From Nautilus pompilius (Eukaryota; Mollusca; Cephalopoda; Nautilida; Nautilidae): a stretch of DNA of 64,000 nucleotides. Made by a program: the position numbers and the translations under genes. The stretch lies in the NCBI GenBank assembly GCA_018389105.1, contig JACATO010001006.1:124001-188000 (forward strand), given 5' to 3'. The notes under the pieces are model-generated. The model saw only the letters and a list, made by a program, of their open reading frames with translations, was not told where the DNA came from and made no database searches. Position 1 is the stretch's first letter, and every line of letters starts with the position of its first letter. Shown piece by piece: positions 4,463-47,058 of the stretch.

Positions 4463-4673
4463 AAATAGAGAGAGAGAGAGAGAGAGAGAAGAGAGAAGAG
4501 AGAGAGAGAGAGAGAAATGGAGAGAGAGAGAGATGAAGAGAGAGAGATGGAGAGAGAGAGCGAAAGAGAGAGAGAGCGAGATGAAGAGAGAGAGATGGAG
4601 AGAGAGAGCGAAAGAGAGAGAGCGAGAGAGAGAGGAGAATGGAGAGATGGAGAGAGAGAGAGAGAGAGAGAGC
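4463..4673 (+). repeat. GA-rich microsatellite block
   Basis: About 210 bp of imperfect (GA)n interrupted by ATGG and AAGAG units. The purine bias creates an open frame encoding repetitive Glu/Arg, which is an artefact of the repeat. Confidence 0.9.
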
Positions 4674-5509
4674 TGTTATGCTAATAAAAGTGCTATTGAT
4701 ACTAACGTTTATACTGGAGGGATTCGTGAAGATCTGGCAATTAAATGTGAGAATTAAACGCGTATAAAAGGACTCGAGTACACGAGATAAAAAAAAAAAT
4801 AAGTAATAAGATCAGCGCACGTGCAGTATTCGTTACATTAATTCAGAAAGAGGGAAGAAGGATAACAACGGCCGGTAACTACACGTACTGTTACAGAGAG
4901 GACTGACGTGGCCAGAGGGTCACAACGTACCAGATAGGGCGAAGCTTCTCCCCATATATGACGCGGAATTAGAGGGGAAGCAACGTTTGTAGTTTGCACC
5001 ACCGACATCGAATTAAACATTTTTAAATAAATAATTAAAATTTTAATTTAATCGTATTATATTTATGACAGTTTCTAATCTATTTATGATGATACTAAAA
5101 ATGTTTCATGGCAATTCTGGAGGTTCTCATCGGTAGGGAAGAACTATTATGTCCAGCAGACACTCATTGATAACTACCTTTCTTCTGATTATAAGAGCTT
5201 CCTGTTTGGTGGCTTCCGAAGACCACGATGATCCATAACCAAGTCAGGCTGATAAGAATGGACTCCTCTCCATATTCACCTCACACTGTATTATGGAGAG
5301 AGGTCTGCTGTGAGAGTCCAATCTGTAGAGAACCGAAGAAAATTCATTCATTAGTTGCAAATTCTCATGGAGCCAGGCATAGAATTGCAACATTATATAC
5401 ACTATTTTATGTATGTAACAAATTGATGGGTTTTTTTTTCAAGAAAACCCAGGGGAGGAACTAACAATTGAAAAAGTTTCTATCGCTTCAGCTTCATGTT
5501 CTACTTTGA
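4674..5509. other. No gene seen
   Basis: AT-rich stretch between the GA block and the left end of the transposon at 5513. Nothing recognisable was found in either strand. Confidence 0.5.
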
Positions 5510-5512
5510 TTA

Positions 5513-5640
5513 CACTGGTCAACAAATTTTTATTTTTTTTCTTTGGCAGACCATCTAGGAGTGTTTTCTGGGGTTTTGAAGGTCGCTGATTACGAATATA
5601 ACATTGGTTTTGTCTGATTGGCTCTAGTTTAGAAGATATT
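5513..5640 (+). repeat. Left terminal inverted repeat of the CACTG element
   Basis: Imperfect inverted partner of 6964-7083. Shared blocks include CACTGGTCAAC at the outer end, a TTTCTGGGGTTTT core and GGCTCTAGTTT near the inner end. The similarity stops abruptly where the open frame begins. Confidence 0.8.
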
Positions 5641-6613
5641 GATAGCCTCAAATAAGCCTAAACTGCTAAAATTCTCCCTGAAATACTTCAATATAGAAGC
5701 AGTAAATAATAATTTTCTGAAAGTTGTACTTTTGCATAATGGCAATAAGTTTGCTCCTGTACCACTTGGCCATTCTACCAAGATGAAAGAAGAGTATGAT
5801 GGTATCCAATTTGTTCTTGAAAAGCTAAATTACAACACTCATAAATGGCTGATTTGTGTGGACTTGAAAATGGTGAATTTTCTGCTTGGTCAGCAAAGTG
5901 GGTACACAAAGTATCCCTGCTTTCTTTGTTTGTGGGATAGCAGAGCAAGAATCCAGCACTGGAGAAGGGAGAACTGGCCAGAACGAGAAAGTCTCGAAGT
6001 CGGCACAGCCAACGTCATCAATGAGCCTTTGGTACCCAGGGATAGAATCATCTTCCCTCCATTGCACATAAAACTAGGGCTCATGAAGCAGTTTGTTAAG
6101 GCGTTGAACAAAGATGGGGATTGCTTCAAGTACATATGCAGGCAATTTCCAGGTCTTTCCATCGAAAAAGCTAAAGGTGGCATCTTCGATGGACCTCAGA
6201 TTCGAACGCTCATGAGGGATTCTGACTTCACTAATCATATGAACATGGTTGAGTTAAATGCTTGGGTGTCCTTCACAGATGTAGTGACAAACTTTTTGGG
6301 AAATCACAAAGCTGACAATTACAAGCAATTGGTCCGTAAGATGCTTACTGCATACGAAAAACTAGGGGCAAATGTGAGCATCAAAGTTCATTTCTTGTTT
6401 AGCCACCTCGACAGATTTCCTGGTAATCTTGGTGATTACAGTGAGGAGCAAGGAGAGAGATTCCATCAAGACATCAAAACAATGGAAGAGAGGTATCAAG
6501 GCAAATGGGATGAGCACATGATGGCAGACTACTGCTGGAACCTTTTGAGAGACTGCCCGAAAGTTGCTCACAAGCGAAAATCGTATAAACGTCAATTTCA
6601 CTTTTGTGAATAA
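5639..6613 (+). CDS. Transposase-like protein, truncated N-terminus (RAG1/Transib/CMC-like zinc-binding core)
   Basis: A 324-codon open frame starting at a non-ATG codon; the first in-frame ATG is residue 49. The true N-terminus is therefore missing, probably removed by the deletion joining it to the left inverted repeat. I recognise it as a member of a multicopy 'uncharacterized protein' family of invertebrate genomes. Visible residues in order: D75 in CVDLK, C94-x2-C97 in PCFLCLWD, PPLHIKLG at 140-147, H251-x4-H256, and E269/E270 and E273 in YSEEQGERFHQD. The D-to-first-Cys distance (19 residues) and the CxxC/HxxxxH pair before a late Glu resemble the D708, C727/C730, H937/H942, E962 layout of RAG1. 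I infer a DDE transposase that lacks its first Asp. The frame has no internal stop. Family membership is moderately sure, the fold call less so. Confidence 0.65.
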   Translation: MIASNKPKLLKFSLKYFNIEAVNNNFLKVVLLHNGNKFAPVPLGHSTKMKEEYDGIQFVLEKLNYNTHKWLICVDLKMVNFLLGQQSGYTKYPCFLCLWDSRARIQHWRRENWPERESLEVGTANVINEPLVPRDRIIFPPLHIKLGLMKQFVKALNKDGDCFKYICRQFPGLSIEKAKGGIFDGPQIRTLMRDSDFTNHMNMVELNAWVSFTDVVTNFLGNHKADNYKQLVRKMLTAYEKLGANVSIKVHFLFSHLDRFPGNLGDYSEEQGERFHQDIKTMEERYQGKWDEHMMADYCWNLLRDCPKVAHKRKSYKRQFHFCE

Positions 6614-6963
6614 AATATTGTTTTGTGTGTTCATTGTAACTAAGAATCTAGTGTATAATAATGCTTTGCATTAATTTATGATATATAACTGATTATGTAA
6701 ATGTTTTTTTCCCTTGGAGAATTAAAATTCAGCAAATTTTTAGCAAATTTTTTGTATATTCTCGAAATATATGAAAAGTGTTCATTTATTAATAAATGAA
6801 ATGATGTTATATCTAACTTAACTTGTTAGATTGAGATTTTACACTGTCTTTGTGGTTTTGGATTATCATAAAAATCAATATCTGACATTTTTGCACTATT
6901 TAGCCGTTTTTTGTACGTTTAGTTATGGTCGCGAATGGGTGATTTCAGACGAACGACCCCCCT
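6614..6963. other. 3' non-coding part of the CACTG element
   Basis: AT-rich segment between the transposase stop and the right inverted repeat. No polyadenylation signal could be assigned with confidence. Confidence 0.4.
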
Positions 6964-7083
6964 GTGATATCTCCAAAACTAGAGCCAACTTGAAAAAACA
7001 AATGTCAGATTCGGATTCAGCGCCCTTGAAAACCCCAGAAACCAGTCTCACTTTTCCTGCCAAAAATATTGTGTTGACCAGTG
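6964..7083 (-). repeat. Right terminal inverted repeat of the CACTG element
   Basis: Reverse-complement partner of 5513-5640 ending in GTTGACCAGTG, followed by TTA at 7084-7086. The adjacent LINE begins within a few bases of this end. Confidence 0.8.
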
Positions 7084-7209
7084 TTATTAATAATCAGCTA
7101 TCAACGCCAGCATCACCGCTCGACTCCGAGGACCACCTCCACGTGGTGTCGGGCGAGACGAAGAGTCCTCCACCACAGTCAACCCACGGGGCCACCCAAA
7201 TTCCCTGGT

Positions 7210-7233
7210 GATGTTGAAAGGAACCCCGGACCT
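7210..7233 (+). other. 2A-like ribosome-skipping motif DVERNPGP
   Basis: The codons spell PGDVERNPGP and match the D(V/I)ExNPGP consensus of 2A peptides. In these peptides the bond between the last Gly and Pro is not formed, so two products come from one frame. The skip would fall at 7230/7231, ten residues' worth of sequence before the first zinc-finger Cys region. Family knowledge: 2A-like motifs occur at the N-termini of Ingi/L1Tc and other APE-type non-LTR elements. The upstream frame is lost here through an apparent one-base shift in the CCC run at 7204, so this copy may not support skipping. Confidence 0.8.
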
Positions 7234-7242
7234 GCACCTCCA

Positions 7243-8400
7243 TGTGGTGTCTGCGGGGGCCCAACAGCGAAGAAAGCCTTGTCGTGTGTCATCTGTCAGA
7301 AGTCAATCCACCAACGCTGTAGCGGCATGACGCGAGCGGAGACTGAGCAACGGCGACAAGCCGGTGCCTATCAATGCCCCCAATGCTGCAAGTGCGGGAA
7401 GGGTTTCCGACTCCTTCAAAACAGGGCGACCTGCGGAGTCTGCAATGCCCTAGCCCACCTTGCCTGCACGAACCTGCCAGAGTAGAACGTGAGAAGCTGA
7501 TCAGAGGCCCGAGGAGCTGGACTTGCTGCAACACGCCGCAGTTATCCACCCCGCCGCATTCAATCAACAAGCCGCAATCCACCAACCAACTGCCAGAAAG
7601 GACGGGTTTAGGGGCCCCCTGTCACCACCACCAGCCAAGCCGTGAAGGTCAATTGTGCAGAGGGCCGCAGAGTCATCAAGAAGACGAGCCCGAGAGCCGT
7701 ATGTGTCACGTGTGGTCAGCCCCGTCACCTCGCCTGCACCCGCCTCCCACGCAGAGAACGAGAAAACATCCGAAATGGCTGCCGAGAGTGGCGCTGCTGC
7801 GGCACTACACCACCTCCATCTTCGAATGTCCAGTCCAACCAATTTCCACCAACAGATCAAAGCAACGTAGAGTCCCGCCGACAAGACGAAGTACCAACCG
7901 ATGATGAGGGACAGGCGCGCGGTGGTGGGAGTGACGAGCTGCCAAATCCCAACCAAAAACTAGATTCCGGTCGAGAGATGAGACGAACCAGAGCAGACGT
8001 GTTGAGGGTGCTCCAGACCCCGATAAGTAACGGGCAGCAGAGAAGACCCGAGCCATGCCACGAAGAAGACCCCGAAGTTCAAGATGTGACGACCCAAGCT
8101 GACGCCGCCGAGAACTCTCCCGATACGAGTCCAGCAAGAGAAACCGATGTGCCATCACCACAGCTAGCAGAAGGGGACCTGTTACGAAGCATCGCCATTG
8201 AGGAATCGCCGAGACAAACCAGAAGGATCCCGTCGCTAGAGGGGGCGCGATGCGCGGCCTGTACCACTCGGATCCGACAGGGGGCCCAGAGACTGGTCTG
8301 CTGCCTTTGCAAATCACAATACCATTTTAGCTGTATGATGACAAGCCGATTACAGATGGAGAGAACGAAACAGATGCAGAAGTGGCGATGCAACCACTGC
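7243..8400 (+). pseudogene. PHD-like zinc-finger array of the Ingi-like LINE
   Basis: Four Cys/His modules can be read. Module 1 (7243-7386) has CGVC, CVIC, HQRC and CPQC. Module 2 (7387-7529) has CKCG, CGVC, HLAC and a final CC, split by a stop and frameshift at about 7485. Module 3 (7654-7800) has CVTC, HLAC and CC. Module 4 (8251-8400) has CAAC, CCLC, HFSC and CNHC. The C4HC3-type spacing is that of PHD fingers. Pro/Ser/Arg-rich linkers separate modules 3 and 4. The product would be the N-terminal nucleic-acid- or chromatin-contacting part of the retrotransposon protein; the exact role is unknown. The open frame from 7642 continues into the endonuclease. Confidence 0.75.
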
Positions 8401-8484
8401 ACCCAACAGCCAATAGCAGACAATGCCGGACAACAAGCGACCCCCGAGCTAAATGGAAAGAGCCCCGGTGTACACCAACCCCAA

Positions 8485-9135
8485 CTCCGCATTCTTCAGT
8501 GGAACGCCAATGGTATCCGCAGAGAGCTGCCTCTTTTGAAAGATCTCCTTGAAGCTACCAATGTGGACGTGGTGTGCATCCAAGAAAGTAAACTGCTACC
8601 GAAAGACAAGACGCCTGAGCTCCGCAACTTCTGTGCTGTTCGACGGGATCGACCAGTGCAAGGGGATGCGAGAGGGGGCGGTCTGCTGACGTACGCGAGG
8701 AAAAAACTGCCATATAAGGTAGTCGGTAGCCAGACCAGTGACACGAGTGCCCTGGAGAAGTTGACAATCGAGATCCCTACCCCACAAATGAAGACGTTCA
8801 CAGTTTCAAACTGATATCTCCCCCCGGAGAATTCTCGTTACCTGCAGAGGACTGGTTTCTCGCTGGCGGAACTCCAGATGGACATCAAGGTGCATGAGGT
8901 GATCTGCGCAGACCTGAACGCTCACGACACAGCATGGGATCAGACAGCCAAATGGACGCGAACGGAACCTTCCTCACCGACCCAGAGGTACCGACACGCC
9001 AAGATCCTGCCACAGGGTCCTTCTCCTCACCAGATGTAACGGTGGTCCACGCGGCCTTCCGAGACCAGTACGACTGGGAGCCCCTCGACACCCTCTCGTC
9101 TGATCATCGACCCATCATCATCACAATCCACCTTC
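8485..9135 (+). pseudogene. APE-type endonuclease domain of the LINE
   Basis: Catalytic motifs are present in order: LQWNANGI (metal-binding Asn), CIQES (Glu), ICADLNAH followed by W (Asp/Asn), SPDVTVV, and LSSDHRPI (Asp-His pair). In active elements this domain nicks target DNA for target-primed reverse transcription. It is interrupted by TGA at 8812-8814 and by a frameshift near 8940. All catalytic residues can be found if the breaks are ignored, so decay is mild. Confidence 0.8.
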
Positions 9136-45684: not shown

Positions 45685-47058
45685 TCAACAGTTTGTGTCT
45701 GCCTTCTCTTGGCGCTTTAGGCACAGAGAAGTAATCCTGTTCCGTCCAATGTTAGACTTTATTCTCAGCTGGTCGTTTGACCTGGTCAGCTTGCTCTTTA
45801 AACTCATCCAAAGTTTCATGTCCGTTGTGTTTCCCAACCGTGTTTCCCACTGGTTGGCGATCAGTGCGGTGCCATTGTGTGGCTCTGCAGCACTGTGAAA
45901 TCTTGTCAGGTTCTCATTGTAGCCATTCATTTCTATTCCTCTAACAACAGTGACAGCATTGCTGTTTCTTCGGTTGTCAAAGGACAAGCTGAAGCTCCTT
46001 GTGAGCCGGTGGACATTCTCCTTGTCCATGAAGAAAAAGCAGAAGAGTCTCCAGAACTCGTTACGAAACCTCTGACCAAAAAAGTAATAGGGGACGATGT
46101 TGATGGCAGAATTCATCAGTACAAGGAAGTTCCCAACTTCGTTCAGAATGTGGTATGGTCGGCTGGAGTAAGCTCCGGGATTGAATGCCCAGATCATGCG
46201 TGAAATCAGTGCTGGCATTTGGCAAATAAAAAAAACTATGACCACACCAATGAGCATGACAGTCGTGTCGTTGCGTCTTTTCTCCTTTGCATTGATGACT
46301 TTGCCTTTCTTCCTTGATTGGTGCACAGCATGTATTAGGAAAGCATTCAGCAGTGCAAGTGTGAAAAATGGAACCATGCAGACAAAGATCAGGTAAAGCC
46401 AAGAGTGGATGATCTCTCGGAAGTAACTGTTCTGGCCAATTTCTGTCAGCCGATATAAAACTTTTGTCTCATTAAAACCCAACTGGTCAACCACAGTGTG
46501 GTACTCAAAGAACCGTGGGATGTTGAACAGGATGCCACCTAAGTACAAGCCTATGACGACCTTACGTGCCCTTGAAATGCCACACATGTGCTCTGCTTTG
46601 AAAGGGTGACAGATCATGATGTAGCGGTCAATGGTAAATGCCAGGGTGAGCCATATTGAAGTTACCTGAAAGGTCACAGCTGCTGGATGGACAACAGGAA
46701 ACATGTAGGAGTAATATTTATCTGGCCACTGCAGCAAACCTTTCTGCGGTGCTTTCGTGTCCTTCAGCAGCAGCAGCATTGTGAACAGTAGCACGAGGCA
46801 GTCGCTGACTGCGAGTCCTGACAAGTAGGTGTATGTTGATGACTTCATGGTATTTCTGGTCAGAACGAGGAAAGACAGAATGTTTGCCACAATCCCCAGA
46901 CAGCACACAGTCATTCCACCTATCCCCATAAGGTAGTACAGAATCAGGCTGTTCTCATACACAATATCTCTGTTCTCAAAATTGGTGAGGTCAGAGCTGT
47001 TGTTGGTGAACTCCAAGAAGCTCCTGTTCCAGATCAGATCAAAGTCCAGTTCCATCAT
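45685..47058 (-). CDS. FMRFamide receptor-like class A GPCR, intronless
   Basis: A complete 457-residue frame from ATG (CCAAATGATGG context) to TGA. Seven hydrophobic segments lie at about 38-66, 74-98, 115-148, 166-182, 217-246, 265-291 and 304-327. The family marks are N59 (GIVANIL, TM1), D86 (LAVSD, TM2), DRY at 144-146, P282 in FICQMP (TM6) and NSAINIVPYYFFGQRFR (TM7 into helix 8). N-terminal N11 and N19/N20 and ECL2 N196 are glycosylation sequons. By eye it is closest to the FMRFamide receptor/GPR139-like peptide receptors, so the likely role is neuropeptide sensing at the plasma membrane of neurons or muscle; the ligand is inferred. There are three oddities: no Cys in extracellular loops 1 or 2, Gln replacing Trp in CWxP, and NIVPY replacing NPxxY. 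The 130-residue C-tail is Ser/Arg-rich. Confidence 0.9.
   Translation of the reverse strand: MMELDFDLIWNRSFLEFTNNSSDLTNFENRDIVYENSLILYYLMGIGGMTVCCLGIVANILSFLVLTRNTMKSSTYTYLSGLAVSDCLVLLFTMLLLLKDTKAPQKGLLQWPDKYYSYMFPVVHPAAVTFQVTSIWLTLAFTIDRYIMICHPFKAEHMCGISRARKVVIGLYLGGILFNIPRFFEYHTVVDQLGFNETKVLYRLTEIGQNSYFREIIHSWLYLIFVCMVPFFTLALLNAFLIHAVHQSRKKGKVINAKEKRRNDTTVMLIGVVIVFFICQMPALISRMIWAFNPGAYSSRPYHILNEVGNFLVLMNSAINIVPYYFFGQRFRNEFWRLFCFFFMDKENVHRLTRSFSLSFDNRRNSNAVTVVRGIEMNGYNENLTRFHSAAEPHNGTALIANQWETRLGNTTDMKLWMSLKSKLTRSNDQLRIKSNIGRNRITSLCLKRQEKADTNC

Follow-up and report, generated by a model that had tools for sequence, protein, structure and literature searches.

The transposon in the window and its open reading frame

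The window, a stretch of 64,000 nucleotides from Nautilus pompilius (contig JACATO010001006.1, positions 124,001 to 188,000), contains at 5513-7083 a complete DNA transposon of 1,571 bp with CACTGGTCAAC ends, terminal inverted repeats (TIRs) of about 120 bp and a TTA target duplication. The element begins at 5513 with CACTGGTCAACA and finishes at 7083 with TGTTGACCAGTG. Its left TIR occupies about 127 bp (5513-5639, forward strand) and its right TIR about 117 bp (6967-7083, reverse strand), and the two align in an ungapped core of 81 bp at 81% identity (E = 2e-16). The left copy of the TTA duplication is located at 5510-5512, preceded by an A at 5509, and the right copy at 7084-7086, with a T next at 7087. 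Elsewhere in the window, a GA-rich simple repeat is found at 4500-4680 and a 457-aa open reading frame at 45685-47058 on the reverse strand, the latter of which we take to resemble a rhodopsin-type G-protein-coupled receptor.

The element carries an open reading frame of 324 codons (5639-6613, forward strand), which starts with TTG and has its next in-frame methionine at codon 49. The residues that the original prediction regarded as a RAG1/CMC-like core, i.e. D75, C94/C97, H251/H256 and E270, are all present at these positions of the frame. The transposase remnant proper (5717-6613) equals residues 265-562 of the full-length protein described below, plus the stop, and the frame matches that protein identically only from its own residue 27 on. 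In terms of full-length numbering, the predicted second catalytic aspartate D75 (5861-5863) is D313, the C(2)C motif with C94/C97 (5918-5929) is C332/C335, the LH motif (6062-6067) is L380-H381, the H(4)H motif with H251/H256 (6389-6406) is H489/H494, and the presumed catalytic glutamate E270 (6446-6448) is E508, all on the forward strand. The frame is devoid of the first aspartate and of the N-terminal Cys/His region, leaving the catalytic core incomplete.

Copies in the genome and the full-length version

The genome searched comprises 727.6 Mb in 2,558 contigs. Among the best 40 of 925 candidates scored at the DNA level, at least 28 copies align over all 1,571 bases, and the remaining 12 matches cover bases 204-1571 at 100% identity as rounded. 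At least 21 places, the window copy included, carry the identical 1,571 bp at full score, a repetition that is far above chance.

Two of the 20 stretches fetched (L041 and L042) contain elements of 2,516 bp that share the ends of the window copy and show no differences between them over their entire length. In both, a frame beginning at a TTG stays open for 564 codons; it has an ATG product of 562 aa in which the first aspartate (D259) is found together with D313, C332/C335, L380-H381, H489/H494 and E508. A full-length version with an upstream first aspartate, as anticipated by the original prediction, thus exists, as do further genomic copies with the same CACTGG ends and TTA or TAA duplications. 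Two additional long copies measure 2,520 and 2,522 bp (L043 and L053); the coding region of the former is broken into two frames, and the match to the latter contains a stop.

Compared to the full-length element, the window copy consists of a common prefix of 208 bp and a common suffix of 1,364 bp, with 945 bp missing in between; the junction is located at 5716-5720 and displays a short imperfect match. As the deletion takes out residues 1-264, D259 is lost, and the window copy is an internal-deletion derivative and therefore non-autonomous.

Target sites and an empty site

The 58 loci L003-L060 represent 49 distinct sites, that of the window among them. The tally of target sites required exact 15-base ends, a filter that excluded L049 and left 48 sites, of which 47 possess a perfect 3-bp duplication (23 TAA, 22 TTA, one CTA and one TAT); over the 49 distinct sites the perfect duplication is missing at two, L055 and L049. 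The duplication is of the TWA type at 45 of the 48 tallied sites, and an A precedes and a T follows the insertion at 43 of the 48, the window site reading A-TTA / TTA-T.

The contig itself contains the host flanks a second time, without the element, about 73 kb downstream (L069, G000 C961:203650-204050). The joined window flanks are 98% identical to this locus, unbroken across the junction, and around the junction 91 of 91 bases are identical, with one TTA only. L069 is a paralogous empty site derived from a local duplication, and it confirms the TTA duplication. The initial description of the element, as a CACTG-ended transposon with long inverted repeats and flanking TTA, agrees with what is seen. 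Other empty sites were sought among the fetched loci, where the search returned only two weak self-matches of L035. A host gene is ruled out by the many copies, the duplicated target and the empty site, and an assembly artefact of one place by the copies at 48 sites with differing flanks.

The similarity to L069 ends 31 bases to the right of the junction, about where sequence shared by many contigs starts in the window. This is a repeated sequence with an open reading frame at 7115-8814, around 31 bases right of the element, the start of which is found on many contigs; the frame is presumably non-LTR-retrotransposon-like, with Cys-rich fingers followed by an endonuclease-like stretch.

Related families and conserved residues

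A second query consisted of the N-terminal 253 residues, which are largely missing from the derivatives. All of the best 150 of 3,161 candidates that were scored matched, and beneath the close copies most display 46-57% identity. Eight fetched stretches were aligned with the full-length protein of the window family, yielding nine proteins in four families (L061/L062/L067, L063/L064/L065/L068, L066 and the window family) with 44-58% identity between families. Ten residues, D259, D313, C332, C335, L380, H381, H489, H494, E508 and E511, are conserved in all nine. As E511, three residues after E508, is equally conserved, either may be the catalytic glutamate, and the triad of D259, D313 and glutamate is presumed from motif position. 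Chapaev3 transposases carry a Chapa zinc domain at the N-terminus. In the window family, the N-terminal part contains a Cys/His cluster (C16, C19, H57, C60, C63, H91, C95 and C98), of which H57, C60 and H91 are kept in all nine proteins and the others in seven or eight; the Pfam zf-AD model reaches only E 0.14 on the full-length protein, below significance.

Elements of the L061/L062 family begin with CACAGGGGAAC and end with GTTCCCCAGTG. Both of these copies have CAC/GTG ends and A-TTA and TTA-T flanks, and they also have two further flanking bases per side in common. Proteins of the kind encoded by the window transposon are usually annotated as 'uncharacterized' in invertebrate genomes, and the present alignment shows that they bear the motif set of RAG1-related transposases.

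Searches with general models were less productive. Pfam gave no significant match for the window frame, the full-length protein or the proteins of alignment A1 (five of the nine above), the matches obtained being weak and below cut-off. A PDB profile search with A1 returned no match up to E 10, and a PDB sequence search with the window fragment returned two chains at chance level. An AlphaFold prediction of the window fragment alone, with no relatives, had a mean pLDDT of 35.9 and the model is unusable. No relative was confirmed in viral contigs or prokaryote genomes, nor, with the 303-aa window fragment as query, in phages or plasmids; two pattern matches in viral contigs were rejected as relatives (best E 0.075).

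Probable assignment to Chapaev3 and relation to RAG1

Based on these features, we consider it very likely that the element is a non-autonomous, internally deleted cut-and-paste transposon of the Chapaev3 group, within the CMC/CMCT assemblage that includes Transib and RAG1. The proposed assignment is built on the anatomy of the element and its set of motifs rather than on a tree, and Chapaev3 proteins were compared by description. In the available part of PMC4079192, Chapaev3 or Chapaev elements have CAC/GTG ends and TWA duplications that are always between A and T, and Chapaev3 proteins bear a C(2)C, an LH and an H(4)H motif. All the Chapaev3 features testable here are present, with the A/T rule departed from at five of 48 sites.

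Comparison with the Chapaev3 families Garfield, Merrow and Conan, as excerpted from the same source, reveals the same CAC/GTG ends, TWA between A and T, the same succession of C(2)C, LH and H(4)H, similar protein lengths of around 560 aa (Garfield_BM, of 2,289 bp, has a 556-aa protein) and, likewise, amplified internal-deletion derivatives (PMC4079192). In Garfield and Merrow the protein is encoded by two exons, whereas the window family has one open frame; most of the remaining Chapaev3 proteins appear to be encoded in a single exon in the text available (PMC4079192). Copies of GarfieldN1_BM are given there as more than 91% identical to the ancestral sequence, compared to at least 21 identical copies here (PMC4079192). 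No published report of the window's own transposon family was found among the literature matches listed, and no relevant new paper on active insect Chapaev3 among those listed for that subject; of 303 papers in which the terminal sequence occurs, the 10 listed have titles that look unrelated.

The element could instead belong to another CMC/CMCT branch with 3-bp duplications, such as EnSpm/CACTA or an unnamed lineage. According to the accessible portion of PMC12730594, EnSpm, Mirage, Chapaev, Transib and RAG1 have in common a C(2)C and an H(3-4)H motif between the second aspartate and the last glutamate, and Chapaev3 is placed as a sublineage within Chapaev. The CMCT clade has, in the same source, CA..TG ends in most members and duplications of 2 to 5 bp, and our element resembles it in these motifs, ends and duplications. 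Three EnSpm families likewise make 3-bp duplications (PMC12730594, in part), and duplication length is therefore undecisive when taken alone. The placement of TWA between A and T, the LH motif and H(4)H are nevertheless marks of Chapaev3 in what is accessible of PMC4079192, and none of the five A1 proteins matches any Pfam model of EnSpm type at E values up to 1, a weak argument as a Chapaev3 Pfam match is absent too. We regard such another branch as very unlikely. The CMCT elements treated in the available sections of PMC12730594 are fungal families with a TET/JBP gene, whereas in L041 no open reading frame of 150 aa or more is present other than the transposase.

The spacing of the motifs raises the question whether the element belongs to Transib/RAG1 in the narrow sense. 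RAG1 numbering, as given in the accessible part of PMC4914335, is D600, D708 and E962 with C727/C730 and H937/H942. The distance of 19 residues from aspartate to cysteine, in both D75-C94 and D313-C332, equals that of D708-C727, and the H(4)H pair is ahead of a late glutamate as H937/H942 is ahead of E962, so both similarities put forward in the original prediction hold (PMC4914335, in part). Other distances differ: H256-E270, identical to H494-E508, spans 14 residues compared to 20 for H942-E962, D259-D313 spans 54 compared to 108 for D600-D708, and the C-to-H span is longer in RAG1 (PMC4914335, same portion). Furthermore, no significant sequence similarity between RAG1 and the element proteins was found with the Pfam RAG1 model or the PDB profile, the RAG1 family model being without match in all five A1 proteins up to E 1 and, with the limit raised to E 10, in the full-length protein as well. 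The same model also found nothing in the animal's own genome, which is uninformative, as nothing was found in 14 control genomes either. Transibs typically make 5-bp duplications (PMC4411706, available part), and the 3-bp duplications observed here argue against Transib in the narrow sense, a reading that we reject and to which we assign next to no probability.

In the portion of PMC4411706 available, the Transib superfamily has four clades, with Chapaev3 as one and RAG1 in another. At the level of motifs the link to RAG1 is real and already in print. The expectation that a widespread orphan family would be tied to the RAG/Transib/CMC group holds for CMC-type anatomy and motifs and fails for novelty: no new link is opened, since Chapaev3 and its Transib/RAG1 kinship are described in the accessible parts of PMC4079192, PMC4411706 and PMC12730594.

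Proposed transposition and derivative classes

We propose that the 562-aa protein encoded by the 2,516-bp copies would bind the CACTGG ends and excise the element through a putative DDE (D259, D313, E508) site of RNase H-like type, into which, as in RAG1, a zinc-binding C(2)C/H(4)H module would be inserted. The same protein would then join the element to targets of the A-TWA-T type, cut with a stagger of 3 bp. Having kept both ends and lost the first aspartate along with the N-terminal part, the window copy would accordingly be mobile only through the full-length protein.

The family is young and probably recently active. Its full-length single-frame copies, the empty site and the well-defined target make it a resource for study. 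We see an even chance that the Chapaev3 element is still transposing, with intact full-length copies and at least two derivative classes, reduced to the catalytic part, that may restrain it; if true, the family would exemplify a RAG1-related CMC transposase that is alive and open to testing.

P-element KP repressors damp transposase. By analogy, a short protein made from the truncated frames might dampen the activity of the full-length transposase, which would be compatible with the Chapaev3 explanation. The best 130 of 7,064 candidates, of all classes, were scored with the 303-aa window fragment as query, and the matched stretch is without a stop in 121 and contains one in nine. Over residues 1-303, identity is 100% in at least 26 of the scored matches; over residues 5-303, it is 100% in at least 75, all with one common top score. 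Such open and uniform frames would suit a damping protein, but youth by itself accounts for both, and in the window copy the first methionine codon, apart from the TTG start, is codon 49. We consider the production of such a protein unlikely.

A further derivative class of 1,752 bp, represented by L044 (1662-3413), has lost a different stretch, with the first aspartate kept and the N-terminal Cys/His region absent. An open frame of 353-354 aa, of the type of this class, is found in 59 of the 130 scored protein matches, and one of 326 aa, as in the window class, in 26; the 1,752-bp class may hence be the more numerous, with frame length a mere proxy for derivative class and the list biased toward the query's own class.
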